From: Acholoe squamosa
Lineage: Eukaryota > Annelida > Polychaeta > Phyllodocida > Polynoidae
Direction of reading: 5' to 3'
Length of the DNA stretch: 64,000 nucleotides
Assembly: GCA_949317995.1 (NCBI GenBank)
Contig: OX439041.1
Location: 10,862,001 to 10,926,000 of the forward strand
This document shows positions 7,561-58,268 of this stretch, one piece after another. Below the pieces are notes generated by a model, which saw only the letters and a program-made list of their open reading frames with translations, was not told the origin of the DNA and made no database searches. A program made the position numbers and the translations under genes. Each line of letters begins with the position of its first letter. Position 1 is the first letter of the stretch.

Positions 7561-8530
7561 AGGAGACCTAGAGGGCCCTACTGCAGAGCAAAGGCCACAG
7601 GCAGCCTCACCCGCAGCCCAGGAAATCCAGGGATGTCCTACTGTGGGGCAGAGGCCCCAGGCAGTCTCAGCTTTGAAGCAGGAGAACCAGGGGAGTGCTA
7701 CTGCAGGGCTGAGACCATAGACAGCCTTGGCTGCAGTCCAGGAGACCCAGGGATGTCCTACTGTGGGGCAGAGGCCCCAGGAAATCTCAGCTTTGGTACA
7801 AGAGGCCCAGGGGAGTCCCACTGCAGGGTTGAGGCTGCAGACAGCCCCAAGTTTGATGCAGGAAACCCAGAGGGCCCCTACTGCTGGGCAGAGGACCCAG
7901 ACAGCCTCACCTGCCGTCCAGGAGATCCAGGGATGTCCTACTGCAGGGCAGAGGCCCAGGGGAGACCCACTGCGGTGCTGAGGTCACAAACAGCCTCACC
8001 TGCAGTCCAAGAGACCTAGAGGGACCCTACTGCGGGGCAGAGGCCACAGACAGCCCCAGGTGTGATGTAGGAGCCCCAGGGAGACCCTACTGTGAGGCAG
8101 AGGCCTCAGACACTCTCAAATACGGGATAGGAGACCTTGGAAGGTCCTACTGCGGGACAGGGCCCCAGACAGCCTCAGGAGCAGTGCTGGAGACCTAGAG
8201 GGGCCCTACTTCGGGGCACATGACTCAGACAGCACCAGCCGCTGTAAAGGAGCCCCAGGGAGGTCCTACTGTGCGGCAGAGGCCTCACACAATCCCAAAA
8301 GTGAAGGAGTCCCAGAGGTGCCCAACTATGGGGCACCTCTGGGACTCAGACACTCAGGCTAGGGCGAGGCCCTATTGCGGCGCACAGGCCCTAAGCAGCC
8401 CCAGTTGGTGCCAAGGATACCCACGGAGGTCCTACTGTGGGACAGAGGCCTCAGACAACCTCATTTGGTGCCCAGGAGATCCACAGAGGTCCTACTGCAG
8501 GGCACAGATCCCAGACAGCCAATGCCATAG
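7561..8530. repeat. 60-bp minisatellite, about 16 copies
   Basis: A 60-bp unit starts with GGAGACCCAGGGATGTCCTA-like sequence and contains CTACTG(C/T)GGGGCAGAGGCC. The phase is so regular that consecutive 60-base stretches align. Later copies (8000-8530) are more diverged. It could encode a 20-residue repeat but is interrupted by stops. Confidence 0.8.
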
Positions 8531-9059
8531 GCAGGAGATGCACAGAAACCTTCCCTGGTGGAGGGAGGAAAGATTCCTCTGGTGGAGGGAAGGGGATAGA
8601 ATAAGTAAACCCTGTTCATGTACCAAGTAATCCTCCTATGGCTTCATAATAAATAGAATGGTTCCAGGAGGGACCCATTAAGGAGGTGCGTCCGGTAGCG
8701 CGTCCGGAGCCAGTCGGCTTCCGCGGTAGCTGTCTCCCACGCCGGACTGGGGGATGGCCGGTTGGACGAGGGAGGGAAGCCTGAAGTTACCATGTTGGAT
8801 GAGGGAGGCGACCCTGAAGTCACCACATGCCTGGGGAGGCGCGTTAAATGTGTCCATGGTGCCTGACGAGGCACCTTAAAGATGCACGTGGTGTCTGGCG
8901 AGACACCTCAGTGTTGCCAGAGAGGGTGGGGTTGAGTTTCCAGCGAGACAGAAGCTGGTCTTCCCAGGGACACTGGTCAGCGGCCACCAAGGCTGGGACC
9001 CTGAAATAGTTTAAGGATGGGGCATTGGCTTGAAATATTAGCAGAGATCCACGATGCCG

Positions 9060-13471: not shown

Positions 13472-13477
13472 CTCATG
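13472..13477. repeat. Target-site duplication, left (CTCATG)
   Basis: CTCATG directly precedes the AGTAGTATAG terminus and recurs directly after the right terminus (22,277-22,282). Six-base duplications are the Polinton signature. Confidence 0.9.
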
Positions 13478-14200
13478 AGTAGTATAGTATGTATCGGAAC
13501 GGGACTATAGCTAATCTAAGGATATTACTCACTGGTCATGCAGCCAATCAAAGGCCTCGCTTTTGACGGGAAATTCAAATGTGGGGTCACATGACCTAGA
13601 CCCCCATGGTGTGGCGCCAAAATGGACCAATCAGAGCCCTTCCTTTTGGCGGGAAATTCAAAAATTGTCACGTGACCCGAACCCCCTGTGGTTTGCCGCC
13701 CTCTGATTGGCTGGCTGTTTAGGTCATGTGACCTCTATTATGCAAATAAGGTCACATGACCCTAATTTGAATGGACCAATAAGAGGTCATCATTTTGGTG
13801 GGAATTTTGAAAAATTTGGTGACGTCTCTTTATTTAAAAAAAAAACATTTTTGCCAAAAAAAAAAATGGAGACCTCTGATTGGTTCGCTGACCAGCTGGC
13901 TGGCTGTCCACACGTCATACCGTCAGTCAGCTGTATGCAGCAAGCAAGCAAGTAGTTACGTGGTGACCTTATTAGCATAAAGAGGTGTGGTTTATTATGT
14001 AGTAGATGAGGGTGCAAGTATGGTGAGATATTTATGTAAATAAAAAAAGGCAAGCTGAAAGCTTGCCAAGAAAAAAAAAACAAAAAAAAGGGAAATATTT
14101 GCGGGGCCCTTGGGGTGGGGGGGCCTTTGTGGTGGGTTGGGCCCCTTTTTTTTTAGTAAACCAGCCCCTTAGCTAGGGGCGGGTTTAGTAAAAATAAAAA
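13478..14200. repeat. Left terminal inverted repeat
   Basis: Inverted match to 21,578-22,276, including the AG terminus, CCAATCA/GGGAAATTCAAA modules and the TAGTAAACC...GGGTTTAGTA hairpin at its inner end. Several CCAAT boxes and one GTCACGTGAC palindrome lie in the outer 300 bp. Confidence 0.88.
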
Positions 14201-14262
14201 CTTAACAAACAAATTTATTTCATTTTTTTTTATTTTGATAAATAATATTTACACTTTATTAT

Positions 14263-14541
14263 TTACAAGTTGCTAAATGCAAGTTCACACTCTCTACATA
14301 ATATAGACGAATGTCTGAGAGGAACATGACAGAACTCACACATTGAGATGTACACATTCGACTTTTGTTTGTCATAATTCAGACTGTACATGGTGTAATC
14401 TTGGTATACAACTTTGGAGCAAGTGCCCTCTTGAAATGAAGGATAGGAGTAAGCCATATTTCCCATCTGAATCTCATCGATATCGCAAGTGAAATCCACT
14501 GAAGCGCTATACCAATTACTCCATTCAGTTTGTCTGGACAT
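14263..14541 (-). CDS. Small Cys-rich protein (ORF B) of the Polinton-like element
   Basis: 92 codons, intact. The C-terminal third reads C-E-F-C-H-V-P-L ... L-C-R-E-C, a C-x2-C...C-x2-C pattern suggesting a small zinc ribbon. The N-terminal part is acidic and rich in aromatics and Ser (S-Y-P-S-F, Y-T-M-Y-S-L). It lies 33 bp after ORF A, which also ends in a C-x2-C cluster. I do not recognise the family. Position after PolB suggests a structural or regulatory accessory gene. Confidence 0.5.
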   Translation of the reverse strand: MSRQTEWSNWYSASVDFTCDIDEIQMGNMAYSYPSFQEGTCSKVVYQDYTMYSLNYDKQKSNVYISMCEFCHVPLRHSSILCRECELAFSNL

Positions 14542-14573
14542 GATATTCTCGGTTGAGCAGCTGGTACACCAGG

Positions 14574-14906
14574 CTAAGGAACTTTGCTACACAACATTCG
14601 GTCGACACACTTTTGACAAAAAGAGTTGAATGGTTCCTTTGACCAATGACACATTTTTCCCCAGAAGTCTGAGCACTCTTGCAAAAGAGAAAGCAACGTG
14701 TTGATCGATTCTATCGTATATTGCCTTTTGATGAAAGCACATGTGTTCTCGTCATGGAATTGATATACTCCTATAACTCTATCTGTGATGCTACCAACCA
14801 CTCTTTGATACACATCTTTGAAACACACGCTCAAAGAATCAAATACATCATTAGAAACGAACACTTTATGAACACCTTGGTTTAACAACGGAGCCTTAAA
14901 GAACAA
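14574..14906 (-). CDS. Small Cys-containing protein (ORF A) of the Polinton-like element
   Basis: 110 codons, intact. It opens M-F-F-K-A-P-L and ends with F-C-Q-K-C-V-D-R-M-L-C, another C-x2-C cluster. It is not clearly homologous to ORF B but has the same plan: an 80-residue body followed by a Cys-rich tail. No known domain is recognised. It is followed immediately by ORF B on the same strand. Confidence 0.5.
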   Translation of the reverse strand: MFFKAPLLNQGVHKVFVSNDVFDSLSVCFKDVYQRVVGSITDRVIGVYQFHDENTCAFIKRQYTIESINTLLSLLQECSDFWGKMCHWSKEPFNSFCQKCVDRMLCSKVP

Positions 14907-15236
14907 AACATCTGATGCATCTATTATTTCTCAAGTGAAAATGGGATCGCAAGTACACATTTTTTTTTCAACACTGATACACGAGGTAAGTTGGTGGATG
15001 AAGTAGATGAAGTTAATACAACAACAAAGGGTATTATCTCACCGGCTTATCTATATCTACATTTTTTTTTTAATAATATATTTTTTTCATAACTCTAAAG
15101 CACTCTTTGTCACTCCGTCAGAATGTACACAACGCTTCACATATAAGTAACTCAGTCCCTTTTTCTCTATCGTGTAAGTGCATTTTGTTTTCTATTACTT
15201 TAAAATTTGTATTGACAGCGCGGATAGTTTTTCGTT
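14907..15236. other. Spacer between PolB remnant and small ORFs
   Basis: AT-rich with poly-T runs; it may contain the frameshifted C-terminus of PolB. Nothing further is supportable. Confidence 0.4.
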
Positions 15237-18200
15237 TCAAAAGAACATCCAAGAAGTCTTTGGGTTCTTGAACAATTTTTTTTCATGACACCCTTGCACT
15301 CCATTTCTTTGATTTTCTTTCAGCTGTCGAGTCTTTATTGTAGCAAATGTAAGTCTTGGAGTTGAGACTCCCATTGCCCTCCCACTTGGATTTGAAAAGA
15401 CCCGGAGTTCTTTGATCGTGAACTTAACGTTTCTGACAACAAGCGGGGGGATCCATATGTCGACTCCTTGGGTTTTTATCTTTACAAAAAGCTCTAAGTG
15501 GTCATCGCACACCGCTGTTGGAATCCAGTTTCGTTTCTCTCTGAAGTATGATTCTCTCAGGTCGGGTTTCATGAGTTGGTCCAACGATTCCCCACTGAGA
15601 ACCATGTAAAGACTGTCAGTGTCCATTTGACAAAAAGCGTAATCGCGTCGATTAATAAATTTATCCAAAAAGTCGAACGTGAACTCTAACATTTTCAACT
15701 TGGCGTACTGGTACACCATGAATCCTATTTGAATAGGAAGATTGTTCCTGACTGTTTTCTGTTGCAGTTCGACTTCAAAGAGATCTGTGCTCAACTCTGT
15801 ACCCTTTTTGAACCACTACGAATTGGTCAATAATTCGAAGGTTCGACCTCTAGTGTATTTCACAGTGGTGTATTTTTCTTTGTTGCAAATTGTTTTACCG
15901 TACATGGTGTTTCCCATCAACTTGTAACAGTCTGACAGAATTTTCTCGTTCGCGTTTACGTCACTGCGTCTTTGTGCCGCGGTTATTTCATCTGCGAAAC
16001 CAGCAAAGGGACTTCTAGGAAAGTATTCTATAAACAGGTGTACTTCGGTGACTGTTACACCGTGATCCAAATACCACTTAAGAAGAGGTGTTCCCAAGAG
16101 AATCTTTTTTCCCTGGTAACTACCTATCAAGGATCTCTGAGGGGCGTTCATCAGGTTTTCGTTGTTCGCAAAGTCTGTCATGTGAGGTCCTATGTAGGAT
16201 TTTGAAATGGTCATGTTCTTGAAAACAGGAGTCATTTCTTTGAAGTATTCACGTATGTAAGGAGGAGTAGTAACGTTCACCTGAATCAAACCGAACATTC
16301 TCCAGTCTTTCACAGAGGATATGATATCGCTCTCTGTCATGGGATTTCGAGCCTGTGAATCCTGGTGTTTCATTTTTCTCCATTCACACTCCTATACGAC
16401 GATCAACTTGTGACCTATAGCTTTTGAGTAAGCATTTCTCATCCCTGTCTGAAGCACACGGATATCTGTGCAGCGGTATGCACTTATGAGCGTGGAACCA
16501 ACACCCATGAAATTGGAAAACGGTGTCAGAAACCATCTATGCGAATTTTTCGGTAACCTTGAGACACTTCCCCCTGTTGAAAGCGTGGCGAAGTTTCACG
16601 CTGTGGGCGTGCTCCACGTAGCGCAACCACTCTAAAGAGCTCTTAGAGTGTCTTTGCCTGATTTTCGGTTTGAACTCTGTCTCGGGTCATCTCACCAGGT
16701 AATAACCTGTGCAGTGTGCTTCGCTCATGCAGCGCAAGTACAGAGAGTTAGCGTCTACACCTAGGATGTGTTCGCATGTTCTCGCTTCTTCGCCGTACTT
16801 GTATTTCCTTATCAGCGTGGTACCCTTCTCTTGAAATCTATGGAAGATTATGGAAGGACCCCCCACCAGATTTTCTTTTATTAAAGAGTGGAGGTGAGAG
16901 TCCAACAGACACCCTGTGGTTTAAAAAAGGAATCGTAAAGTCAAACCCAGAAGGGAGATGCCGTCTTTGAACATGTCAATGTTGTGCTTCCTGAAAAATT
17001 TAGCGTGATTATTCAGTGCCTCTATGAAGGGTTTCACATCTTTGTTGTTGTAGTGGATTAAGTAATCTCTGAAAGTTTGCATGTTCTGTTAGGACCAAAC
17101 TTTTTCACATTCGGCGTAGTCAGTTTCAGACATCTTGGTACCAGTCAGTTTGCTGTCGAATGCAGATCTTGGAGGCAGTGTTCTGTTTTCCAGTTTCCTG
17201 GTAGATGTCATCCATTCGTAAGGAAAGTGTCCTTTGTGCTGATTTCTGGTGAAAGCTAGCTGATAATTCGCGTAGTTATAACCAGTTGCCAAATGTGTCG
17301 AGTGTAAATCGCCAAGTATTGGTTACTTCTCTTTATGACGCTGAATTCTTTGTTCTCTCGCTCTTTGGAGGAGAAGAACGAGTGAAGCTGTACTTTGATC
17401 AGATTTAAGTCATAGCGCCCCGAGTTGAAACCTACGACCGGAACTTGGCGGAGATATCTCAAAAGTCTCTTCTTCAGTTCAACTAAAGGGTGTCTTGTTC
17501 GAGTTTCATTGAAGTCGACACCAGGAGGACTGAACGCCTCCTCTAGGTGGAGAGCTTCAGTTATCCTCTCGTCTAACTTGCTAATGTCGGTCGGTAAAGT
17601 TCTAGCACTGCTTCCCCGATGATTTTGGCGGTGTCGTTTATGTAATTCAAAACTTTATCCAACAAGGGGTTTGAACTGTGTCGGATTGTCTCACGAAGCA
17701 GACCGGACCTTTGCGACCTGGAAAGTCAGAGCGACGCTAGCAAACAGAGGGACGTGTTCCCACAGGACTGACACTTGTTTGGTGGACAGCTCTTAGGGCG
17801 GTCTGAAGAAAGCTTTGAAATCGAAGGTAATTTTGTAAGGGTACATTTTTGAATTTCCGTTGGGAGGAAAAATGGAAAAATCTACTAGTGCTTCGAAAAC
17901 TGTTTTTGAATTTTGGTAGATTCCACCTATGTATTTCAAGGCGACTTGTCTGCAAGGGGAAAGTTGGTTCCTGTGTCTTTTCAGTAAGAACTTAGTCGTG
18001 AATGCCGACTTACACTCGAGACATTCGTAGATGCCAGCGTATTCATTGAAATCCGTAACGCTGGACACGTGCAAACCGTGTGTCGCGGACAGGTGTAGGT
18101 TGACTTTACCTCGGGCAGCAAATTTTTGGAAGGCGGTCTGATCAGGGTAACTCGGTTTTTCAGGTTCTGACCCCTCACTTTACGGGTGGTGTAAACTGCT

Positions 18201-19095
18201 ATTTGTATATTGAACAAGTTCTCTAACGCGGGTAAGTCGCTGATGACCAAACCTGGAAAGGTCTCAGGATTCACAGTGGAATCAAACAGATGCAACAATT
18301 TTGAAGCGTGTTTGCCGGACTTGTTTAAGTGAAGGATATGCAGCGAAAGACGCATAACTTATCCCTGTTGGGAAAATCTAACATACCCCCTCTCTTTTTA
18401 AGTCAACCCGAATGGGTAACCCTACCTCCTATGGGGAATTCTCTGGGTCCCATGTAAATGCAAACATTCAAATTGGTGGAAAAAGAACTTTCCACTTGGT
18501 GTCAGAGTTGCAAAGTTACTGTACTTCTTCGGAAGTGACAGTGTTTTCCATGAGGGAGAGAAGCTCTTCTAAAGTTTCTGAATTAGCTATGGTGGGGAGG
18601 GGTTGTAAAAGAGACGCATTGTTTTGGGAGGCGTGAAAGTAGCGTAGCTTGTTTCTGTTTTCTCTGTTTTGTAAAATTAAGCCTACTGACAAACCCAATT
18701 TGTATCTGAATCTTTGCGTGATGTGAATCTGACGCAGGGTATCTACAGCGTCACTCAACTCACCAGTTGGTAGTCTTAAGTTTGTTACACTCAAGCGACT
18801 CCCTTGTGCCCTGACTCCTGTTTGTATTGCGGGCCAATTCCTGGAGAACATTTCCTCACCCTCCGGTACAGTGCGTATTATTGGAGGAATAGTCACTCCG
18901 TCGAGAGATTCGCGTCGACAGGTGATTTTTTTTGCAATTTCCTTCGCTGCATAGAGGACAAAATTTAGGTATTACCCTACATTTTTCCATGTGTCTGTCG
19001 TAATTGTACACCCTTTTAAATTTTATGAAACACTTTTCGCAGATATGATGATCCATTTTCACTGAGTTAGTTATATGTGAAGAGATGTTTTTCAT
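15237..19095 (-). pseudogene. Protein-primed family-B DNA polymerase, disrupted
   Basis: Fragments in all three minus frames line up as one ~1,280-codon PolB. In order: an N-terminal zinc-finger-like part (C-E-K-C-F-I-K-F near 19,030), a second C2H2-like finger (Y-E-C-L-E-C-K, near 18,030), an exonuclease-side segment with F-P-Y-E-W-M (near 17,200), palm motif A (G-V-D-A-N-S-L-Y, near 16,760), motif B (K-L-M-G-N-T-M-Y-G-K, near 15,900) and motif C (M-D-T-D-S-L-Y, near 15,620). At least five frame changes and several stops, including a TAG near 15,810, break it. The palm residues themselves survive. It would replicate the element from a terminal protein; this copy cannot make a full enzyme. 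Confidence 0.88.
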
Positions 19096-19149
19096 TCATC
19101 TATCTATCTAACTAGCTATTTTTCTATCTATCTATCTTTTTGAATAGAT

Positions 19150-19510
19150 GAAAGGTGGCTTTGACGTCTCTTCTTAGAAAAGAGGATTAATCCTGTAGTC
19201 ACAACAGAAGAGACCCTCGCTCGGTAGGAGGCCTATAAATCCAATTTTTCACCTGTCCTCCAGCGGGGAGATAAACAATAGGAGAATCCGGATAAAAACT
19301 TCACTCCATTCTTAGATCATCAAAGGTTAGGTGGAAGAAGTTCCAGCAGGATCAAAGGCAGCTTTTGATAGTTTTTTTAGAAAAGAGCTCTAATCCCTTT
19401 GATCACAGAGATCCTCACTCGGTAGGGTGTCTATAAATCTAATTTCACCTGCCCTCCACAGGTAAACCAGATGAAAGTTCGTCTAAATAGGATTAGAAAA
19501 ACTTCAAAGA
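19150..19510. repeat. Direct repeat pair, about 200-bp period, in the divergent control region
   Basis: Two copies (from about 19,150 and 19,353) share TTAGAAAAGAG, CACTCGGTAGG-type and CTATAAATC(C/T)AATTT blocks and a CCTCCA box. They separate the leftward PolB from the rightward death-domain gene. TTTATAG on the minus strand could serve PolB. Confidence 0.65.
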
Positions 19511-19646
19511 GTAGTAGGTAGCAATTACACACCCCTGTTAACATAAGGAGAAGTAAAAATTAAGAAATCTCATAATACCTTAACACGCGACCCTCCCTCA
19601 CACCTGTAAAGTGGATTAAGCTAATTATCACAGTTTAATTCCCTTT

Positions 19647-19836
19647 AATCCCGCCAAAATACAGTTATCACAATACCTTTCCACTTGTTTTATGTCAACA
19701 GCTCTAAAAGATAAGTCACTACACAGAATGAAAGCAATCACCCTAAATTTCACCAAATACACTTGTCACAATGTCTTTCCCCCTGTTTGATGTTAACAAA
19801 TTCAAAAGCCTCAGGCTGATAATTTGCTACACAGAA
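19647..19836. repeat. Second direct repeat pair, about 95-bp period
   Basis: Both copies contain TGTCA/TATCACAAT, TTTCC, TGTT(T)(A/G)ATGT(C/T)AACA and end CTACACAGAA. The GCTACACAGAAA terminus recurs as GCTACATAGGAA before the BIR promoter. Confidence 0.6.
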
Positions 19837-19844
19837 AGGAAAAA

Positions 19845-19885
19845 GGTGGTGGTAAGTATCTAGCTGGAAATCACCCTATATAAAG
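19845..19885 (+). promoter_or_regulatory. Promoter of the death-domain gene
   Basis: Order of elements: GGTGGTGG, AAGTAT, AGCTGGAAA (19,862-19,870), then TATATAAAG (19,877-19,885). The same order recurs ahead of the BIR gene, so the module is likely a shared, possibly early, promoter. Confidence 0.7.
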
Positions 19886-20050
19886 CACCCCAATTTCTCT
19901 TTGGAAGGATATATCACTGCTGACCACTACAACTACGGCACCTACCGCCACTACCTTTACCATCACCAGCACCACCTACCCGCCGGCTCCCTGCCTACCT
20001 GCTTGCCTACCGACCTTCATCAAGTGATTTCTGAAGTTTTTGCAGGCGAA

Positions 20051-20725
20051 ATGAGTCTTGAAAATAACCCCTCCCTATCTGACTCTGACGACATATGTGA
20101 AGTGAGTGTACAGGATCATGTCACGTGTGAAATGAAATTTACATATAGCGATCGTTTGCTTCATGAAATAGGAAGGCTGTTAGTTGGGTCTTGGAAGAAA
20201 TTGGAAATCTACTTGGACATCTCCTATGAGCGTCTGCAGGAGATGGTCATTATCAAGACGGTGCAGGATATGTGTATGGAGATGTTCCAAACTTGGTGGG
20301 CTAAAACTATGGATCATGCCAGATGGGGAGAACTCCACAACACCTTCATGAGTGTTCATCAACAAGATCTATTAATTCAGTCGCAGAGCTTTTTCAAGAC
20401 AAACAAAATGGATTACAACAATCCCGACCAGTTTACAATGGAGAGGTACTTTGTCACCATGTCTGAATCTCTATTCAGGGAGTGGAAAGATATGGGGACG
20501 TATTTAGGTTTGTCATCTGAAAGGCTAAATAGAATCGCACAACAATCGGATCAAGATATGTCTCTCCACGCCTTCAAAGTGTTGAAAATGTGGCAAGCTA
20601 AACCCGACAGTACATATCATCAGCTCATTCGAGTGCTGATGGATGACATGCGGAGGTTTGACGTTGCCAGATATATAATACTTCACTTTGAAAATGAAGA
20701 AAAAGAGATGGTACGTAGAGAGTAA
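20051..20725 (+). CDS. Tandem death-domain protein
   Basis: Intact, 224 codons from the ATG at 20,051, the first ATG in frame after the TATA box; the frame is open upstream from 19,901 but without ATG. Two helical repeats look like death domains. Repeat 1 (residues ~30-105) has G-S-W-K-K-L-E-I-Y-L and F-Q-T-W-W. Repeat 2 (~130-210) has E-W-K-D-M-G-T-Y-L-G-L and L-K-M-W-Q-A-K, with the typical W-K-x-L-x2-x-L-G and late W. Death domains bind other death domains in apoptotic and NF-kB complexes (FADD, MyD88, IRAK type). With no enzyme domain, it is probably an adaptor-like decoy that interferes with host signalling. Family assignment is from pattern only. Confidence 0.75.
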   Translation: MSLENNPSLSDSDDICEVSVQDHVTCEMKFTYSDRLLHEIGRLLVGSWKKLEIYLDISYERLQEMVIIKTVQDMCMEMFQTWWAKTMDHARWGELHNTFMSVHQQDLLIQSQSFFKTNKMDYNNPDQFTMERYFVTMSESLFREWKDMGTYLGLSSERLNRIAQQSDQDMSLHAFKVLKMWQAKPDSTYHQLIRVLMDDMRRFDVARYIILHFENEEKEMVRRE

Positions 20726-20801
20726 TTGTGGAAGGGCGTGGTGACTTTTGTAAAGGAGGTGTCCACCACGGGAATCCCATTTTAAGTCGCTACATAGGAA
20801 C

Positions 20802-20858
20802 GTGGTGGTGGAGATAAAAGTATGCAGCTGGAAAGGGGATTAAGCACATCTATATAAA
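20802..20858 (+). promoter_or_regulatory. Promoter of the BIR gene
   Basis: GTGGTGGTGG, AAGTAT, AGCTGGAAA (20,826-20,834) and TATATAAA (20,851-20,858), preceded by GCTACATAGGAA. Near copy of the promoter at 19,845-19,885. The ATG follows 83 bp after the TATA box. Confidence 0.7.
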
Positions 20859-20940
20859 CCACTTACGTCACGTCTCTGCTGTCTCATTTACCATCTCGCC
20901 TACCACTGATACGTCCACACTCGACTCAGCTACTACCACC

Positions 20941-21387
20941 ATGTTACCTACCTACCTACCTGAGAGAATGGTCAAGTATGTACCTTTCGTCGATTTATCA
21001 AGGAGACTCAACACTTTTGACACAACTATGTGGAATAAACCCCATCCTTTCACAGAGAAACTCGCCGCCCACGGATTCTTTTACATCGGAGGTAAGGACC
21101 TTGTTCAATGCTACCAATGCGGAGTCACTATACACACATGGTTAGAAAGTGACGACATCACTGTGGAGCATTTCAGACATTCTCCTACCTGTCCGTTGGC
21201 CTCGGAAGGTATGAATCTAAGTCCACAGAGTAAAATTTTGCTGACGGAAATGTTGAAGAAATTGAACTCTCTGGACCACGAGTTGCAGCTTTTCAGAAAT
21301 AAGTGGGGTGGAGGAGTTTTTACTTTTGAACAAGCAACTGCTATGTTTTCTAACACTGTAACGTCGGAGGACACAGTAGATAAATGA
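20941..21387 (+). CDS. Single-BIR (inhibitor-of-apoptosis-like) protein
   Basis: Intact, 148 codons. A BIR domain occupies about residues 20-90: R-R-L-N-T-F near the start, zinc ligands Cys57 and Cys60 (V-Q-C-Y-Q-C), His77 and Cys84 (E-H-F-R-H-S-P-T-C), plus the G-F-F-Y-I-G-G-K-D turn. There is no RING finger, unlike cellular XIAP/cIAP and baculovirus IAPs. The tail (90-148) is Leu/Glu-rich and may be helical. BIR domains of IAPs bind caspases or IBM-bearing partners; survivin-type single-BIR proteins also act in cell division. Beside the death-domain gene and with the same promoter, a role in suppressing host cell death is likely but inferred. Confidence 0.88.
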   Translation: MLPTYLPERMVKYVPFVDLSRRLNTFDTTMWNKPHPFTEKLAAHGFFYIGGKDLVQCYQCGVTIHTWLESDDITVEHFRHSPTCPLASEGMNLSPQSKILLTEMLKKLNSLDHELQLFRNKWGGGVFTFEQATAMFSNTVTSEDTVDK

Positions 21388-21577
21388 GAAAATATATACC
21401 CCAGACACCACGGACAACATATATGAACTGACCAAAGACCATCCACAATGAATCGCGATTCATGTATAAATAAGACACCGAGTTAGTTTGTATGTAAAAA
21501 AAATGAAAAATGAAAATGCGAAATGTGTACTACTCAATATGTGGGTTCTATTGTATTTCTATTTAACTACCTTATGT

Positions 21578-22276
21578 AAATTTTACTTTTACTAAACCTG
21601 CCCCTAGCCAAGGGGCGGGTTTACTAAATAAAAAAGGGGCCCCCCCACCCCAAAGGCACCTTTTACCCAATGGTTCCCACAAAGGCCCCCCCACCCCAAG
21701 GGCCCCCAAATATTTTGCTTGCCTTTTTTTATTCATATAAAAAATATCTCACTATACTCGCACCCTCATCTACTACATAATAAACCACACCTCTTTATGT
21801 TAATAAGGTCACCACATAACTACTTGCTTGCTGCATACAGCGGACTGACAGTATGACGTTGGGACAGCCAGCCAGCCAGCCATCTTTTTTTTTTTTTTTG
21901 GCAAACAATTTAAAAAAAAAAGAAATTGACGTCACCAAATTTTTCAAAATTCCCACCAAAATGACGACCTCTGATTGGTCCATTCAAATTAGGGTCACTT
22001 AACTTTATTTGCATAATAGACGTCATGTGACCTAAACAGCCAGCCAATCAGAGGGCGGCACACCACAGGGGTTTGGGTCACGTGACCATTTTTGAATTTC
22101 CCGCCAAAAAGAAGGGCTCTGATTGGTCCATTTTGGTGCCACACCATGGGGGGTCTAGGTCACGTGACCTAACATTTTAATTTCCCGCCAAAAGGGAGGC
22201 CTCTGATTAGCTGCATGCCCAGTGAGTAATATCCTTAGATTAGCTATTGTCCCGTTCTGATACATACTATACTACT
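21578..22276. repeat. Right terminal inverted repeat
   Basis: Inverted copy of 13,478-14,200, ending ...GATACATACTATACTACT. It contains GTCACGTGAC twice (near 22,078 and 22,160), several ATTGG (CCAAT) boxes and a TTTGCATAAT octamer-like site. Confidence 0.88.
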
Positions 22277-22282
22277 CTCATG
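22277..22282. repeat. Target-site duplication, right (CTCATG)
   Basis: Perfect copy of 13,472-13,477. Confidence 0.9.
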
Positions 22283-40652: not shown

Positions 40653-43459
40653 TTAAGCAAAAAGAGCTCTTCCAAGTCCAATCTTTTGATTTAGCTTAAA
40701 TTCCTCGTAAGTAGAAATATTTCTCTTAGATACAGGAAGATCGTTCCATGCCATAGCACCTCTATATAATGTACTTTTACGGCTAGTTTCATATCTTGGT
40801 TTAATAGTGAGAAACACTGTAGCATCATGGCTTCTAGTAGGTACATCTCTAGTATTTAAGAGGGAGACATTAGATTGCTGTTTATACATGAAGTTTAACA
40901 AATGCATTTCTCTACGAGGAGACAGTGGAGATATCATAGCCTGTTGATGAGTCAAATTTGTAGGGTATCTATTATCCAGACCTAACGCAGTATGTAATGC
41001 TTTATTCTGAGTCACCTGTAATTTTTCCAAAATATATACACCAGCCACATCATACAGAATATCACCATAATCTGCATAGGGAAGCACCATGGATTTGTAC
41101 ACCGTCAATAGAGAACCATTGTCTCGGAAAGGTCTTATTTTAGACATCAGAAAAACCTTATGTAGCATTTTGCGACACATCTCTTCAGCATGTTTGTTAA
41201 AATTAAGTACAGGGTCCAGATATACACCTAGATATCTAACACTCAAGACTCGTTCAATTTGTGTATTACCAAACATAAGCTTATGGTTAACAACCTTCTT
41301 CAGCCAAGGCCTCAGACCAAAAATCATATAGTTTGTTTTTTTGGCATTCAATGTAAGTTGATTTCTTTGGAACCAGCCTTCTAAAGCTAATAGCTCATGT
41401 TGCAATGTTCTGGTTATTTGGTCTAGATCCTTTCCCTGCACTGAAACTACAGTATCATCAGCATACAAATAGACAGACCCATGTTTTATGACATTCGCCA
41501 AGTCATTCACATATATTAAAAATAAGGTAGGGCCCAATATAGATCCCTGTGGTACTCCACATTTCACCACTCCTTGACTTGACATCAATCCATTTACCAG
41601 AGATTTTTGTTTTCTATCATCAAGATAATTTCTAAGCCATCGCTGGAGAGGTCCTCCAACACCAATCTTGTCCAACTTTTTTAATAAAATAGAGTGATTT
41701 ACTGTGTCGAATGCTTTCTTCAGGTCCACAAAAGTAGAAATGGTGTACAAACCTTCATTAATGGCTTTATATACCTCATCTGTAAAGTATACCACCGTGC
41801 CTATCGTTGAATGTCCCGACCTGAAGCCATTTTGTCTGTCATCTAAAATTTTATTAAGTTCCAAATATTTCATTAATCTATTATTTACTATTTTTTCCAA
41901 TATCTTACCTATAACCGGAAGTAATGTTACTGGCCTCAGGTTGGATACATTCGCCTTATCTCCTTCTTTTTGCAGCGGTACTATAGTACCAACCTTCCAG
42001 GCAGATGGAACAATCCCTTTCTCAAGTGACATGTTAAATAGATCCATAACCTTATCTGGTATAGAAAGTAAGGCATCTTTTAAAACCCTCGAAGAGACAT
42101 TCTCAATACATGATGATTTGTTGATATCAAGTTCTTTGATTAACTTTATGACTTCTTCTTCATTAGTAAGAATTTCTGAGATAGTGCTATCAGGTGCAAT
42201 GCCCTCGTAAAACCAGTTATCCTCAAAGTTGCGGGCTAGTTTGGGACCTATCTCTAAGAAAAAATTATTGACAAAATCTGGTACATCTTCGTCTCTAACC
42301 ATACAGTCATTCTCAAAGTCCTTTAAATGACAGTTAATCATGTTTCCATCACCTTTGATTAAACCATTTATTTCCCTCCAAAACTTTTTACTATCATCTT
42401 TAAATGCCTCTAAGCGGGCCTTAACATAGGTTGTTTTCGCTTTTTTAATATATTTAGTACATTCATTTCTCAGTCTCCTAGCAAGAGACCAATCATCCGC
42501 ATTTTTTGTTTTAACTGCTTTTTTCATTGCATTATCCTTGTCTCGTATTAATTCTAGTATGTAGTCAGTAACCCATGGTGCTCTTTCCTTCTTTACAGAG
42601 AATGACTTTATAGGTCACATAACATTCAAATTATTCAGTATCACTTTCAAAATAAAATTCCAACGTTCGTTAACACATTCACAATCATCGTATGGGCCCC
42701 AATCTGCATCTCTCATGTATTCCTTAAAGAGTTCAGCATTATATCGTTTATAGCTTCTACCAGTGAAATCTATTTTTTCTTTTGACACATGGTGATCAGT
42801 AAATACAATGCCTATCATATAGTGATCACTAATAACCCATTTCCTTACAATGGCCTTATACTTCTTGGTTGTATTTGTAATAATCCAGTCAATACATGTA
42901 TTAGAATCTTCGGTGCAGCGGGTATATTCATGTATAATTTGCTTTAGACCAAGAATGTTAATACAAATTTTCATTAACTTTGTGGATACCATAGCAGGCT
43001 TCAGGTAGTCAATATTAAAGTTACCCATCACCACAAGATCCTTACGCCTGAGATTTGCTTTGTCAATGAGGGAATGAATAGTGTCTATAAACATAGCCTT
43101 ATCTCCATCAGGGGACGATATACATTTGCAATGACAATATTTTTCTTATCCTTGCATATTAATTCTATCCATTGAATCTAAATAATATTGGAGCTAATAT
43201 TAAGGTGTGCATATGAAGTGTTGGAGTATGAAAAGTCATTTCTTATGTACATTGCTACACCGCCACAAGATTTGTCTCCCCAGCTTCTATCATATCGTTC
43301 CGAGTTGTAGCCCTTTAGACTAACTGGTCCACTAGCCATACCTTGTTGAAGCCAACTTTCTGATATACCTATTATAGCATCTTCACTATCATTCATATAA
43401 ATTCTCAATGATTCAATATTAGCATTTAGGCTTCGTGCATTCAGGTGAGATAATGTCAT
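40653..43459 (-). pseudogene. LINE ORF2: endonuclease plus reverse transcriptase (Jockey/CR1-like), nearly intact
   Basis: The EN part (43,459-42,615) opens L-S-H-L-N-A-R-S-L and has G-I-S-E-S-W-L, V-V-M-G-N-F-N-I-D and the catalytic S-D-H. The RT part (42,527-40,653, 624 codons intact) has V-D-L-K-K-A-F-D-T-V-N-H (motif A), G-V-P-Q-G-S-I-L-G-P (B) and Y-A-D-D-T-V (C), then S-V-R-Y-L-G-V-Y-L-D. Three lesions: a TAG and a one-base loss near 43,110-43,175, and a TGA at about 42,612. This is an APE-type non-LTR retrotransposon; with few lesions it is fairly young. Confidence 0.9.
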
Positions 43460-43995: not shown

Positions 43996-44688
43996 TTATG
44001 GCTGTATGTAGGCGTCTCTCAGCTCCATCAGAATTTCTCCCATTTTATTTTCTTTAACAGAATCCTTGGAGATCAGATTAGCTTGAGCAATAGTGTAATT
44101 GCAGCCCCATCCCTTCTCCGTTGTGGCCTCGTATATGTGGCCTTTAATGCCACATAATTTCTGCTCAAGTATACTGTCTTGGCCAAATTTAAGGTCCACC
44201 ACCTCTCTCATGATCATATACTTCTTCTCATTGGAATCCTTTTTGGTGATCTTGATACCATGTGATAAATGTTTGGCTTCATAACCATCCCTACTGAGTT
44301 TTATTAACTCTACCTGTTCATCATCATTGTTATACATTGCAACTTTGTACCAGAATAATTGTTCTGCACAGTTCCAAGTAACATCATCATAAACAATGGT
44401 GCATGGGTACATGTTAGAGAGGAACGCATGATGAGACTGGTAGGCGATACCATCCTTTACCTCCACCACCTTAGCAGCTTCTAGATTAATACCCTAAGGT
44501 AGCCTCCCAATGTCCTTATAGGTGTAGGTCTTGTCGTCCATTTCAATTTTCCCACCCTTCAACTTAACTGGTATCCCCTGATTTTTGGCCACAGCAGCAA
44601 GACATCTAAGATCTTTTCTTTCCTCCTGTTGTTCCCACGTCAGGTCGTCTGAGATGAACACTTTCTTCCATTTAACCACATTTTTCAT
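43996..44688 (-). pseudogene. NADAR (YbiA-like) domain ORF, one in-frame stop; probable LINE ORF1 part
   Basis: Two open segments (44,688-44,494 and 44,469-43,996) are in the same frame, separated by one TAG. The N-terminal 65 residues (V-K-W-K-K-V-F-I-S-D-D, D-L-R-C-L-A-A-V-A, Y-T-Y-K-D-I-G-R-L-P) are a small alpha/beta-looking domain I do not name. The rest matches NADAR: A-F-L-S-N-M-Y-P, W-N-C-A-E-Q-L-F, W-G-C-N and M-G-E-I-L-M-E-L-R-D. NADAR proteins bind or hydrolyse ADP-ribose derivatives, for example reversing guanine ADP-ribosylation or acting in riboflavin-pathway clean-up. It lies 540 bp upstream of LINE ORF2, same strand. It could alternatively be a host-gene fragment. Confidence 0.75.
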
Positions 44689-50486: not shown

Positions 50487-50492
50487 CCTGTG
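50487..50492. repeat. Target-site duplication, left (CCTGTG)
   Basis: Identical to 54,756-54,761 and immediately outside the AGTAGTAAAG terminus. Confidence 0.9.
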
Positions 50493-50774
50493 AGTAGTAA
50501 AGTATGTATTGGAACTTGACTAAAGTTAAGTACTGTTTATTACTCACTCGACCTGCAGCCAATCAGAGGCCTCCATTTGGTCACGTGACCCGTTGCCATG
50601 GCAACGTGACATACTTAGGGGGTCATGTGACCACCTCTCAGCAAATCAGAGGCCAGCATTCTGGTAACCATGGTAACATGACCTTCTTAGGGGATTAGCA
50701 GAGGGCTCCCTTTTGGCGGGAAATTCAAATGGGGGTCACATGACCTGTGACATCACAAGGGGGCGTGGCCTCAT

Positions 50775-51422
50775 GCAGCCAATCAGAGGCCTCCATTTGG
50801 TCACGTGGCCTGTGACATCACTGGACCCCCGTGGTGCATGCCCATATATATGGTCATGTGACCTTCACCTTGACCTCATTTGCATAATAGGCCATGCCCC
50901 TTGATCTAATTATGGGATTATTAACCACCTCTCAGCCAATCAGAGGAGGGCATTGTGGTTACCATGATAACATGACCTAATTAGGAGATTAGTGCGATCG
51001 TGTGACCCCTTGTTTGTAAACAACATGTGACCTAGCCAAGTGGCTAGGCCACATGGTTCCTTATTTTTAAACAATGGGGTGGGGCTAATTATGCAAATGC
51101 AGCCAATCAGAGGCCTCCATTTGGTCACGTGGCCTGTGACATCACTGGACCCCCGTGGTGCATGCCCATATATATGGTCATGTGACCTTCACCTTGACCT
51201 CATTTGCATAATAGGCCATGCCCCTTGATCTAATTATGGGATTATTAACCACCTCTCAGCCAATCAGAGGAGGGCATTGTGGTTACCATGATAACATGAC
51301 CTAATTAGGAGATTAGTGCGATCGTGTGACCCCTTGTTTGTAAACAACATGTGACCTAGCCAAGTGGCTAGGCCACATGGTTCCTTATTTTTAAACAATG
51401 GGGTGGGGCTAATTATGCAAAT
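50775..51422. repeat. Perfect 324-bp tandem duplication
   Basis: Units 50,775-51,098 and 51,099-51,422 start GCAGCCAATCAGAGGCCTCC and end AATTATGCAAAT. I found no difference between them. The right arm has only one copy. Confidence 0.88.
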
Positions 51423-51594
51423 GAGATATTTTACGATAGAGCACTGCTGTGTTTTTTGCAAGCCACCAAAGTGAGGGGTATGTCTTATACATGAGGATTT
51501 TGTACTTTAGAATAGTACTTAACTGCTAAAAAACATGCTTGTACATGACACTAGACCATACAACTAATATTAAAGACAAATGCTGGTGGATGAG

Positions 51595-52105
51595 TGTTAA
51601 AGAAGTTGTGTTGATTTTTACCTATACCTTTGGATATAATTAGGTTTATATATAGGGATGAAGGAAATGTAAAAATAGTGACATACCACTGAGCTTAATT
51701 CTCTGGGAAAGGGGTGTAATGAAGGAAGGTCTATAGGAGTCAATGGGAAAATCTATGGCCTCAGTTCCTGCTAAAATATCATTCAAGTTCTGTTGCTATT
51801 TTCAAATACTTTTGGATTATGGTAGTTGGATATGTATAGAAGTGAAAAATGCAAAAGGATTTTGTTGACTTTTGTCTATACCTCTGGATATCATTAGGTT
51901 TATATATAAGGATGAAGGAAATGTAAAAATAGTGACATGTCACCAAGCTTAATTATCTGGGAAAGGGCTGTAATGAAGAAAGACCTATAGGAGTCAATGG
52001 GAAAATTTATGACCTCATTTTCTGCCATAATATCATCCATGTTCTGTTGCTATTTTTAAATACTTTTAGATTATAGTAGTTTGATATGTACAGAAGTGGT
52101 AAATG
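51595..52105. repeat. About 250-bp direct repeat in the left arm
   Basis: Two copies share GGAAATGTAAAAATAGTGAC, TATAGGAGTCAATGGGAAAA and GTTCTGTTGCTATTTT. The right arm holds one inverted copy (53,620-53,860) plus a stub. Confidence 0.75.
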
Positions 52106-52479
52106 CAAAAAGATGCATATATGGTCAACCTCATTTTTGTGTATTGGACCATTTAAGTACAACAGGCTTCCAAAATGATATTCATATTCAGGTTTGAAAA
52201 TATTTGCCTTTTCCTTATCTCAACTGTGATATATGGAAAGTATGAATGTCCTGGATTTTAAAACTAGCTTTATATATTTTCTAAGTTGAGGCAAAGTCTA
52301 TTAAAAGTGTGATACAGAAAGTGTCAGGTGTACCCGTCATTGCAGTGCTCTTCAGTGTGGATAGTATTAGGACCATGAGACCTGATGAGTGAGTAGGGTG
52401 TAGACCTACCTATGTATATATCCCCAGGTGTCACCAGTAGGGTAGCCCTGGTAGATTAGTTCTCCAACTTAACTCTTTA

Positions 52480-53390
52480 TTGGGAGCGCCGCTGTTTATA
52501 TGCACAGACATGGACACATGTCCTCTTTAGTGACAGTGATGTCTAATCAGAATTTTCTCGCAATGAATATTCACTCTTAAAATATCCACAATTACTATCA
52601 TGGATTCTCGTTAAACTGAACAATGAACCACTGTTGTTGCATTACAGTGAATCAGTGTAGTTTCTACAATGAAGCAGTACAGTTCACACTATGGTACAAG
52701 GAATCTCTGGACTTTTCTAACCCACTTAAAAGGATATATTTTCTCCTTTTTTCTATTCCCTCAGGTGTGTGTAGTCCACATATGCACAGACACTGACACA
52801 TGCCTCTGTGAAATGGTGTAATGTTGTTCTCGCCATGAATATAACCGTAGCTGTCGAAATGGCGTTAAACATCTATTACTCACTCACTCACAAGGGATCT
52901 GTGTGAAAATGATACTGGTTCTGTGGCAATGTTGGGACAAAGATTTTACCGTTTTTTTGATAATTTCACCTACCTCACACAACTTTAAAATTTAGTCACC
53001 CATGTTTCATTTTAAAGATTTAGAGAATTTAAACTATACAAAAGTCATAAAGACATGTTCAAAAATTTTCTCACCAACCAAAAAACTGATAGAGCCAGTG
53101 TATCAGCGTCAAGTCGAAAGCAAGATATTATCTATGGACATAAAAGGAGCTGGGTCCTGCATGCAACGATTGTGGTTATAGTGAAAATAAGTTTGAAAAT
53201 ATCTTCGAGAACACACTTCACATCGGTACCCGCACAGTAATGTTGTTCCCATTTTTACTGTGAAGTCGAGACATGGCACACAGCTGATGTGAAGGATTGA
53301 CTTTTGTGTTTATAAGAAGTCAGTCAAAAAAAAAAGATTTTTGGTGACCATGTGAAATTGTGTAATGTTGTTCTCGTCATGAATATGTGA
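52480..53390. repeat. Degenerate internal repeats of the non-autonomous element
   Basis: Blocks CACAGACA(T/C)(G)GACACATG, CTCGC(A/C)ATGAATAT and GTGTAATGTTGTTCTCG recur near 52,500, 52,785 and 53,350. No ORF. Confidence 0.5.
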
Positions 53391-53972
53391 GCCAGCAAGC
53401 AGAAATGGGGTTCCTGCGGGATTTAGTACCTGTTACACCAGGGGCACCACTATGGGCTAGAATGGGAAAGATATGCCTAAAACTATTATGGGGTACTTTT
53501 CTATGGAGAATTCAATGATTTTTGATAGAATGTTATATTTTGGGTGAAAAGGTTCCAAATTAGGCTTGTGTATTGGACCATACTAAGGCTTGAGGTTGAC
53601 CATATATGCATCTTTTTGCATTTTCCACTTCTATACATATCCCACTATCATAATCTAAAAGTATTTGAAAATAGTAACAGAACATGAATGATATTTTGGC
53701 AGAAAATGAGGTCATAAATTTTCCCATTGACTCCTATAGGTCTTTATTCATTACAGCCCTTTCCCAGATAATTAAGCTTGGTGACATGTCACTATTTTTA
53801 CATTTCCTTCATCCTTATATATAAACCTAATAATATCCAGAGGTATAGACAAAAGTCAACACAAATTCTGATATCCAGAGGTATAAGTAAAAATCAACAC
53901 AACTTCTTTAACACTCATCCACCAGCATTTGTCTTTAATATTAGTTGTACGGTCTAGTGTCATGTACAAGCA

Positions 53973-54270
53973 CAGAGGCGTAGGAAGTAAATCTTCATTG
54001 GGGGGGCCCGGCGAGGGCACCATCGTGACCACCTTGAATTGTCGGCTGATTCGTGATGGCATCTATTATTATGCATATATAGAATTCATATAGAAAAGTA
54101 ATTTTTGGTAAATTTTGGATCTGATTTGAGATGTAAAGTTTTAGCTTCTTTTCCATTGTGTTTATGAGTTCTTGGAAAATATTGGGGGGGCCCAGACATA
54201 CTCAGGCCCCATCTCCTTCTTGATTAGGGGGGCCCAGGCCCCCCTGGCCCCCCCTTTTCCTACGCCCCTG
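53973..54270. mobile_element. 298-bp MITE nested in the right arm
   Basis: Ends CAGAGGCGTAGGAAG and TTTTCCTACGCCCCTG are inverted. AAGCA is duplicated on both sides (53,968-53,972; 54,271-54,275). The left arm at about 51,530-51,550 preserves the uninterrupted target, so the boundaries are certain. Confidence 0.85.
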
Positions 54271-54755
54271 AAGCATGTTTTTTAGCAGTTAAGTACTATT
54301 CTAAAGTATAAAATCCTCATGTATAAGACACACCCCTCACTTTGGTGGCTTGCAAAAAACACAGCAGTGCTCTATCGTAAAATAGCATAATTAGCCCCGC
54401 CCCATTGTTTACAAAAAAGGGACCACGTGGCTGGGCCACGTGACTAGGTCACGTGTTGTATACAAACAAGGGGTCACGTGATTGCATTAATCTCCTAATT
54501 AGGTCATGTTATCATGGTAACCAGAATGCTGTCCTCTGATTGGCTGAGAGGTGGTCACTAATCCCATAATTAGGTCAAGGGGCATGGCCTATTATGCAAA
54601 TGAGGTCAAGGTGAAAGTCACATGACCATATATGGGCATGCACCAATCAGATCGTGAGGTCATGTGACCAAATGGAGGCCTCTGATTGGCTGCAGGTCGA
54701 GTGAGTAATAAACAATACTTAACTATGGTCCCGTTCCGATACATACTATACTACT

Positions 54756-54761
54756 CCTGTG
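54756..54761. repeat. Target-site duplication, right (CCTGTG)
   Basis: Perfect match to 50,487-50,492. Confidence 0.9.
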
Positions 54762-56420: not shown

Positions 56421-56938
56421 TAAATCATTTTTCTGTTTATTTTAATGTATGATATGGGGATCTGGCATTGATGTCTGGGTGCTAGAACTAATAGAAAGAG
56501 AAATTAATGAATACGTAAGAGATACTGTCAATAGTAGTCAAGGAAATCCAAAAACGTTTTGGTTCAACTTAAATAAAGCCTTCCCATTAAAAGAAGCCAG
56601 TAATCCTTGTATTTTTTAAAAAAGTAAGCAAGGAGTCTACATACCAAAAGAAGCAACAGCACAGCACATTAATACCCTCTTTAGTAAAATTAGCCCTGAA
56701 TTGGCAACTAATTTTAACAGGAGATGGACCCCACCCATACAAGGAGAAGATCCAACTAAAATAGAAGACCTAATCATAGAAAATGAAATGGTCAAGAAAC
56801 ACATAAAAAATGTTGACATTGGAAAATCATCAGCAATTGATGGCTTACCAGCGGTGGTATTAAAAGCTGTACTCTTGCACATAAGCCAAGTCTTTACCCA
56901 TTTATTTAATGTCTCATACTTTACTGGAGTGTATCCTA

Positions 56939-57908
56939 CACAGAGGAAAGAACACTGATCGCTTTGACACATACTGCACAGGTCACAATTTGTCTCCCAG
57001 ATGACATGTATGAAGGCATGTCAAATGAGGTTGACCCTCTCATATTTGGTTTGTCAACTCCATTTGACATGCGTAATAAAGACACGTCACATATTTCTGA
57101 TCCATTCACCTGAGTGCTAGGTAATACTGTGAGACAATTATGTAAGGGTCAAGAGCAGTCAATAACTATGTACCAATGGTTCAATCAAGGGAGGCCTATA
57201 ATAGAAGGCAGGGGATATCATAGTCCCACAGGCCTGCAACACTAAGGCACTTTTTCCTATCTACAGAACTCCTACTTGACTGAGGACCTCTATGCAGTCC
57301 ATAAGACAAGGGCATGGAGGTGCATGGCAATGCCATATGTCTCCCTGTACTGTAGATACTGAGATTATAGATTGTGGGTTAGAATACAGTCCTTTGGTAT
57401 TTTCACTGACCCACACATAAGGTGTCTAACCACTCCAGTTGGAGTATTCAGGATGGTGGGTGTCTATTTTGATATTCAATAACAAATGCAGATTTAACAA
57501 CGAAATAGAATTCACTACCATTTATTGATAGTATTTACAGACCTTAGTGATCTATTCTTCATGAAAACAAAATGACACAGATACATCAAATGTCTCAAGT
57601 GTTGGTAGTACTTCTTGGTAGTGATTAGTCCTGGTACCAAAATGGTTGTTTGCTCCATCTAGTGGAATATCCTAGAACAATTATGTATGTCAAACCATCA
57701 CATGTCAAGTGCCTTCGACATGGCCGTGACCCTGGTCAACTCACAGATGACATGGCATTTTAAGGCATGTCAAATCATATGAGGATTACTGTGTGCTACA
57801 GTTGTCATGGTGACATATGTGCACATGTCCCAATGACCTGTGCTCTCTGTGTCAAATCAAGTTGACATGGGTATACATGTCACTTTGTCAGGAAGAATTT
57901 TCTCAGTG
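56939..57908. mobile_element. 970-bp TIR element inserted in the LINE
   Basis: Ends CACAGAGGAAAG and the complement of CACTGAGAAAAT; TA duplicated at 56,937-56,938 and 57,909-57,910. Removing the insert and one TA rejoins the LINE frame as G-V-Y-P-K-E-W-R-I-A-K, a perfect family match, which proves the limits. Subterminal GACATG / TTTGACAT motifs are frequent. No transposase ORF. Confidence 0.85.
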
Positions 57909-58047
57909 TAAAGAATGGAGAATAGCTAAAGTGGTTCCTATTTTCAAATCTGGTGATAAATTTTCAGTGTATAACTACAGACCCAAATCACTGCTACCTC
58001 TTCCAGGAAAATTTTTTGAACATATTCTACATGATCACTTAACACAG

Positions 58048-58268
58048 TGTAGAGGACGGTGAAAATATCTAGGATCACCGGGACTTGAACCCGGATCTCT
58101 GGCATGACATTCCAGCATGCTAACCATTACACCATGATCCCTTGCCTGATATTTCCACCTTCCAACTACACCTGGATCGGTATGATACATACTAGGGGAG
58201 CAGTGATTACTAGGTAACTGGCCCCTGAGGGTCAATCTACCAGGTACAGGGATTTCTGGTCCCCTACA
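58048..58268 (-). mobile_element. 221-bp TG...CA unit with embedded tRNA (Helenus-type TRIM solo LTR)
   Basis: Ends TGTAGAGGAC and GTCCCCTACA are short inverted repeats of the LTR type. ACAG is duplicated at 58,044-58,047 and 58,269-58,272, and the host LINE frame (H-L-T-Q then F-L-E-R) is restored on removal. The minus strand carries a near-complete tRNA. Animal Helenus TRIMs have LTRs with a tRNA-like promoter and 4-bp duplications, which fits; a tRNA-SINE is less likely given TG...CA ends and no 3' tail. Confidence 0.75.
58070..58141 (-). tRNA. tRNA-Asp(GUC)-like sequence
   Basis: 72 nt with acceptor stem GGGATCA / TGATCCT (one G-U pair), A box TGGTGTAATGGTTAGCAT, anticodon loop ATGTCAT with U33 and anticodon GUC, and B box GGTTCAAGTCC. 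One mismatch closes the anticodon stem. It is embedded in a mobile unit, so it probably acts as its Pol III promoter rather than as a translation tRNA. Confidence 0.65.

Follow-up and report, generated by a model that had tools for sequence, protein, structure and literature searches.

A compact Polinton-type element family without detectable integrase or capsid genes carries a death-domain and BIR gene pair in the annelid Acholoe squamosa

Introduction

The vertebrate Mavericks are delimited by (AGT)2//(ACT)2 or (AG)3//(CT)3 ends, terminal inverted repeats (TIRs) of 46–1447 bp and perfect 6-bp target-site duplications (TSDs) (PMC8097293), and nine Polintons that are devoid of the major capsid protein (MCP) also lack the protease (PRO) and the packaging ATPase (PMC4028283). 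The adintoviruses are defined by a Hexon, an OTU-like domain at the N-terminus of PolB and an integrase with a chromodomain (PMC11071296). Here we describe a compact Polinton-type element found at positions 13478–22276 of a 64,000-nucleotide stretch from Acholoe squamosa (assembly GCA_949317995.1, contig OX439041.1, 10,862,001–10,926,000), called the window below, together with its relatives in the same genome. Besides a polymerase gene, the element carries a gene for a double death-domain (DD) protein and a gene for a protein with a single BIR domain.

This element resembles the Polintons/Mavericks in its (AGT)2//(ACT)2 ends, its 6-bp TSD, a TIR length within the 46–1447 bp range and a PolB-type gene, but it has no integrase and no room for the capsid, protease and ATPase genes, has the DD and BIR genes added, and measures 6.7–9.5 kb instead of 12.7–24.6 kb (PMC8097293). 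Compared with the capsid-less Polintons, the integrase is also absent here, and a DD–BIR pair goes unmentioned for theirs in the sections of PMC4028283 that we draw on. With the adintoviruses it has in common the association with animals and a PolB-type polymerase; neither a Hexon nor a chromodomain integrase was met in the window pieces under general scans, which included no separate Hexon profile search.

Results

Ends and copies of the element

The borders of the element are exact at 13478 and 22276, giving a length of 8799 bp, and are flanked by perfect 6-bp copies of CTCATG at 13472–13477 and 22277–22282. The left TIR (13478–14199, plus strand, outer end AGTAGT) begins with AGTAGTATAG..., and the right TIR (21581–22276, minus strand, outer end ACTACT) finishes with ...CTATACTACT, the reverse complement of the left terminus. 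Alignment of the pair gave 609 matches and 49 mismatches of 658 (7.4%) with 14 gap events, and it confirmed the exact ends, the inverted repeats of about 0.7 kb, the CTCATG duplication and the 8.8-kb unit put forward in the original prediction, a reading of the letters made before any search. The (AGT)2//(ACT)2 ends with TIRs that characterize Polintons/Mavericks are present in the window copy and in the other copies with located ends, and the 6-bp TSD is present in the window copy.

In the 1.48-Gb genome (63 contigs), the left TIR yielded 2092 first-look candidates, a count that, like the others below, is loose and is not a copy number. Of these, 40, window included, were scored, and the main ones among them are 80–100% identical. 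We fetched 20 loci of about 10 kb each from the upper part of this list, covering 23 of the 39 other scored TIR places. Element parts adjoin the TIR in 19 of these loci, in each case parts of the same four-gene layout: 11 contain both halves, that is, gene s with PolB and DD with BIR (L011, L012, L013, L015, L016, L017, L018, L020, L024, L025 and L026), and eight contain one half only (L010, L014, L019, L021, L022, L023, L027 and L028). Complete copies, about 7.5–9.5 kb long, run from one TIR through s and PolB, which share a strand, and then DD and BIR, which lie on the opposite strand, to the second TIR. Both ends could be located in seven elements, window included (8799, 7534, 9530, 9262, 8054, 6716 and 12525 bp, the last containing an insert); six of them have a perfect TSD, that of L026 differs at one base, and the TIR-to-TIR divergence among them is 4.6–8.3%.

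The remaining locus, L009, has no element part beside its TIR. It was considered as a second element class and rejected, since its inner sequence is also found at other places, the best of which has no TIR in the adjoining 500 bases. At L025, one TIR end with identical eight flanking bases occurs twice in the same orientation (127 and 5760), a local duplication.

The death-domain and BIR genes

Two genes lie on the plus strand of the window copy, both with open frames: one encodes a 224-residue protein with two death domains (20051–20725; PF00531, E 6.7e-11), the other a 148-residue protein with one BIR domain (20941–21387; PF00653, E 3e-18). The Pfam matches support what had been proposed for both, a double death-domain and a single-BIR protein, each intact, and the profile search that might have rejected the death-domain call returned PF00531. 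When the two death domains were scanned apart, the second gave E 2.2e-8 and the first 0.074, under the Pfam cut-off; in relatives, the first reaches 1.1e-7 (P0003) and 0.0036 (P0001), and PF00531 is matched by 7/7 members of the DD alignment. The BIR protein has no further domain above the cut-off. By sequence comparison with the PDB, the DD alignment matched chains of FADD, ankyrin and RIPK1, with E values starting at 2e-4, and the BIR alignment found NAIP first. Structure prediction for the DD protein was poor in two runs, with mean predicted local distance difference test (pLDDT) scores of 48.8 and 45.7. Viral contigs scanned with the DD alignment, the BIR alignment, the polymerase piece and the polymerase alignment contained no relatives.

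Pairing of the genes across the genome

The DD, BIR and PolB-piece queries gave 2206, 828 and 2392 first-look candidates, respectively, and the best 150 of each were scored. The DD matches range from 60 to 100% identity, and 44 of the 150 are stop-free in the matched stretch, as are 5 of the 17 at 60–69% identity (frameshifts not counted); for BIR, 83 of the 150 compared places are stop-free. With 150 places for each query, 62 DD matches are followed on their own strand by a BIR 0.4–2.0 kb downstream, and every DD–BIR pair has this arrangement. A divergent DD partner lies at most 12 kb from 33 PolB matches, against 0.09 expected. Partners in the arrangement of the element are found for 79 of the 150 DD and 78 of the 150 BIR matches listed, and since only the best 150 per query are known, the unpaired ones may have partners further down.

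The same gene order also occurs at a divergent place. At L040 (contig C9), a stop-free DD that is 60% identical to that of the window is followed by a BIR in an open frame, 55% identical, and then by a TIR, 75–84% identical, ending ACTACT. Over 129 codons, the BIR genes of L040 and the window have nonsynonymous (dN) and synonymous (dS) divergences of 0.34 and 0.55, respectively, a ratio of 0.62.

The polymerase gene and gene s

The minus strand of the window copy holds a broken Polinton PolB-type polymerase gene (15237–19095) in about nine stop-to-stop pieces. This prediction, and with it the support for the broken PolB claimed earlier, comes from relatives of one open piece, 15819–16391, which has 40 homologues, the closest 66% identical. 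Taken singly, the pieces gave no significant Pfam or PHROG match (best PHROG polymerase match, for one piece, 0.028), and the N-terminal pieces, where an OTU-like domain was looked for, gave none in Pfam. In an alignment of 17 rows, made up of the window piece and 16 of the 40 homologues, DNA_pol_B_2 is matched by one member (0.0012) and Vsr by four, the window's own piece matching neither; compared with the PDB by sequence, the piece has no match and the alignment finds Vsr at 0.0017. A Cys-rich open reading frame (ORF) at 18856–19095, read in a different frame, overlaps the polymerase gene at its 5′ end.

Gene s (14263–14930, minus strand) is also Cys-rich, is again found next to the TIR in other copies and has no significant family match in the Pfam and PHROG scans. 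It consists of the frame pieces 14263–14586 and 14574–14930. These appear to belong to one gene, since in L022 a single frame (8110–8997) spans both, with a frame change near its own end.

Missing genes and integrases elsewhere in the genome

No rve match, expected for an RVE integrase, was obtained among the 20 window pieces scanned with Pfam, and a separate integrase query, a 116-residue piece from a different Polinton (L022), matched neither the window nor any fetched locus except L022 and L029; the earlier statement that no integrase is visible in the element is therefore supported. The scanned pieces also gave no match to a capsid protein, protease or packaging ATPase (general Pfam; dedicated capsid profiles not used), nor, in Pfam, to the parvovirus-type helicase and single-jellyroll capsid protein of bidnaviruses. 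The gaps between genes in the window copy are at most about 1.1 kb, too short for a Polinton capsid gene of typical size.

The integrase query gave 1970 candidates and 150 scored matches, with identities from 100% down to 27%. Many of them lie in stop-free frames of 371–450 residues, several with identical scores. None of the best 150 DD matches lies within 15 kb of 148 integrase places, where 0.45 would be expected (two places on small contigs were excluded), and among the matches listed no PolB match lies within 20 kb of the 43 integrase places that are at least 45% identical. The only TIR place near an integrase match is L022, the source of the query.

At L022, the compact element breaks off at 8288 without reaching its polymerase; next to it are another polymerase, a NADAR domain with E 1.8e-10 and an integrase that matches rve with E 1.3e-12. 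We considered this locus as a full-size relative and rejected it because of this break and because the polymerase of the adjacent Polinton is a different one, only 38% identical; L022 looks like a junction. In L029, the next 10 kb outward, no TIR was found. Together, L022 and L029 contain what is left of another Polinton: its polymerase, NADAR, P-loop ORF and integrase share a strand, and a LINE-like ORF (long interspersed nuclear element) interrupts them. It follows from the rve integrase of L022 and the stop-free integrase frames that other Polintons exist as possible integrase sources. For one class of integrase matches, at 33% identity, there are several places where two in opposite orientation lie about 9–10 kb apart (for example, C12:64399959/64409263 and C17:9609469/9619177), resembling an integrase gene inside the long inverted repeats of another element.

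Selection and decay

Substitutions in the fetched copies, L025 left out, were split into those shared by at least two copies, which are mostly pre-insertion, and private ones. For PolB, counted as eight pieces summed, two of them overlapping in different frames, the ratio of replacement to silent changes is 84:78 for shared and 427:169 for private substitutions (Fisher p 3e-6), and for the TIR used as a control it is 26:13 and 82:28 (p 0.40). The values from wrong-frame controls vary widely, and in a few pieces they fall to the level of the right frame (0.33 in one instance). From the contrast between shared and private changes, PolB was probably needed while the lineage multiplied, that is, it was probably under purifying selection in the past, during amplification. 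The stop-free DD frames at 60% identity are a hint of constraint over longer times.

Window included, only 2 of 14 DD and 2 of 13 BIR copies are open, so the open frames of the window are no proof of retention by the host. Disruptions average 2.0 in 672 bp of DD, 1.3 in 444 bp of BIR and 1.4 in 573 bp of one PolB piece, and these similar values indicate that the three genes decay alike. At the level of the family there is thus no support for the host having kept DD and BIR, and the earlier reading of the unit as a remnant specialised in host-death control is not supported by these counts either.

Other features of the window

Outside the element, a 165-residue ORF at 43996–44493 (minus strand) resembles the NADAR beside the other Polinton's polymerase (34% over 97 residues, E 2e-5) and may be a remnant of a NADAR-bearing Polinton or a host gene. 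The long ORFs at 40653–43145 (minus strand) and 56620–58596 (plus strand) we take, from their motifs, to be LINE-type reverse transcriptase with endonuclease. Nested inverted repeats of 89–98% identity occupy 50492–54756.

Discussion

We consider it somewhat probable that the window unit is a decayed copy of an old, repeatedly amplified compact Polinton lineage, integrase-less and capsid-less, that carries apoptosis regulators and is integrated in trans. By analogy with Polintons and adenovirus-type replication, PolB would copy a linear extrachromosomal form, protein-primed at the (AGT)2 ends, and the RVE integrase of larger resident Polintons would insert the element with a 6-bp duplication. 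During replication of the element, DD and BIR may damp apoptosis of the host cell: the tandem death domains could compete at putative FADD- or PIDD-like adaptors, and the BIR protein, which has no RING, could bind caspases or IAP antagonists (IAP, inhibitor of apoptosis). Packaging by a helper is possible. Of the satellite-like, trans-mobilised element in the original prediction, one part stands, since the recurring layout and the subfamily with a 60% identical DD show that it is not the deletion of a single copy; the supply of integrase in trans and the satellite behaviour are what we infer.

Several observations weigh against such a lineage. No trans-acting integrase could be linked to these ends, and the lack of DD–integrase neighbours is weak by itself because only 0.45 were expected, so that it counts only together with the 20 loci read. 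L014 (240–6955, 6716 bp, perfect TSD) has s and PolB and neither DD nor BIR, a state that looks like an internal deletion before or after insertion, and four PolB pairs have DD or BIR arranged otherwise. The split of substitutions shows no significant selection on s (20:14 shared, 101:35 private, p 0.09), BIR (23:15 and 77:28, p 0.15) or DD (45:15 and 130:41, p 0.86), and pairwise dN/dS does not discriminate, the genes giving 0.33–0.66 and the TIR control 0.59 in one frame. Finally, at L039 (C10:80377640-80379589, 1950 bases), a stop-free DD with 60% identity has neither a BIR nor a TIR downstream of it. A gene distantly resembling s (29% identity, E 2e-7) is present there in reverse orientation, and the place looks like a rearranged variant. 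From the DD–BIR–TIR order at L040 and the differing L039, it follows that the compact order predates this split, and that it varies.

Other histories can be set against the same evidence. A full Polinton with accessory DD and BIR genes might have lost its integrase and virion genes once, the parent then amplifying the short form, which would not be a lineage of its own. The single shared layout and the similar TIR divergence of 4.6–8.3% are as one burst would leave them, and larger Polintons do occur in this genome; yet the layout is also found where DD is 60% and BIR 55% identical, PolB appears to have been under selection during amplification, and the 20 fetched loci include no full-size parent with these ends, the relative with the same TIR and the complete Polinton gene set whose discovery the original prediction had named as its refutation. 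We therefore hold a family of deletion derivatives to be unlikely. Still less probable is a segment of a multipartite virus, whose partner segment would have the same ends and hold integrase and capsid genes without PolB. Segmented relatives bearing PolB are known among the bidnaviruses (PMC11071296), and the gene set here is one of replication and host control only, but no second gene set was found within the same ends in the 20 TIR loci, and L009, the sole candidate, is unrelated sequence that is found elsewhere without the TIR.

That the element is autonomous and, with no helper, is integrated by its protein s or by the part of PolB that resembles Vsr, strikes us as similarly improbable. 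Gene s does recur beside the TIR and relatives of the polymerase piece do have a Vsr-like match, but s matches no recombinase in the Pfam and PHROG scans, and a 6-bp duplication is the typical product of Polintons with an RVE integrase. Co-option by the host, in which the window copy would have kept DD and BIR for host use, is very improbable: although both ORFs are open while the TIRs differ by 7.4% and PolB is broken, DD, BIR and the PolB piece decay alike across copies, chance alone would leave both genes open in about 4% of copies (Poisson, from the means), and the window copy was noticed because it is open.

Capsid-less Polintons are already known; as far as we searched, what is new within the open-licence literature is a compact, integrase-less, multi-copy form with a recurring DD–BIR pair. 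That literature, 5.39 million papers with subscription journals and preprints mostly outside its scope, contained no paper with both 'polinton' and 'death domain' and, among the titles listed, none linking Polintons with BIR genes. Maverick, Polinton and 'inhibitor of apoptosis' occur together in two listed papers, PMC2836289, on fungal transposons, and PMC8905726, in the accessible text of which they are mentioned separately.

A published puzzle of bivalve immunity may be relevant here. The hard clam has 159 IAPs, 51 of them scattered and without introns; of the 49 in clade 1, 42 lack introns and have one BIR exon. Most IAPs of this sort are untranscribed, DNA transposons are enriched around IAPs, and retroposition is the origin proposed in that study (PMC7831173). 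The oyster IAPs suspected of having arisen by retroposition are likewise intronless and contain a single BIR, those of C. virginica being without retroposition machinery (PMC8917759). The clam genes and the BIR genes described here are both one-exon, single-BIR and scattered, those of the clam being mostly untranscribed (PMC7831173), a likeness by description only. Compact elements of this type would give rise to such a pattern, and we predict that the clam's intronless IAPs may be their cargo. More broadly, and tentatively, it is possible that long-lived satellite-like Polintons, which retain a polymerase, are without integrase and capsid and have gained a DD–BIR survival cassette, have by multiplying spread hundreds of intronless BIR genes through animal genomes, where these were miscounted as host IAP expansion.

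If this is true, a successful Polinton-type element can do with genes for a polymerase, a single small protein and the control of cell death, integration being provided in trans, and a satellite-like form exists among the Polintons. Such elements might also contribute, unnoticed, 'extra' genes for apoptosis inhibitors, and would offer a directly testable alternative to retroposition for the intronless IAPs of the clam.

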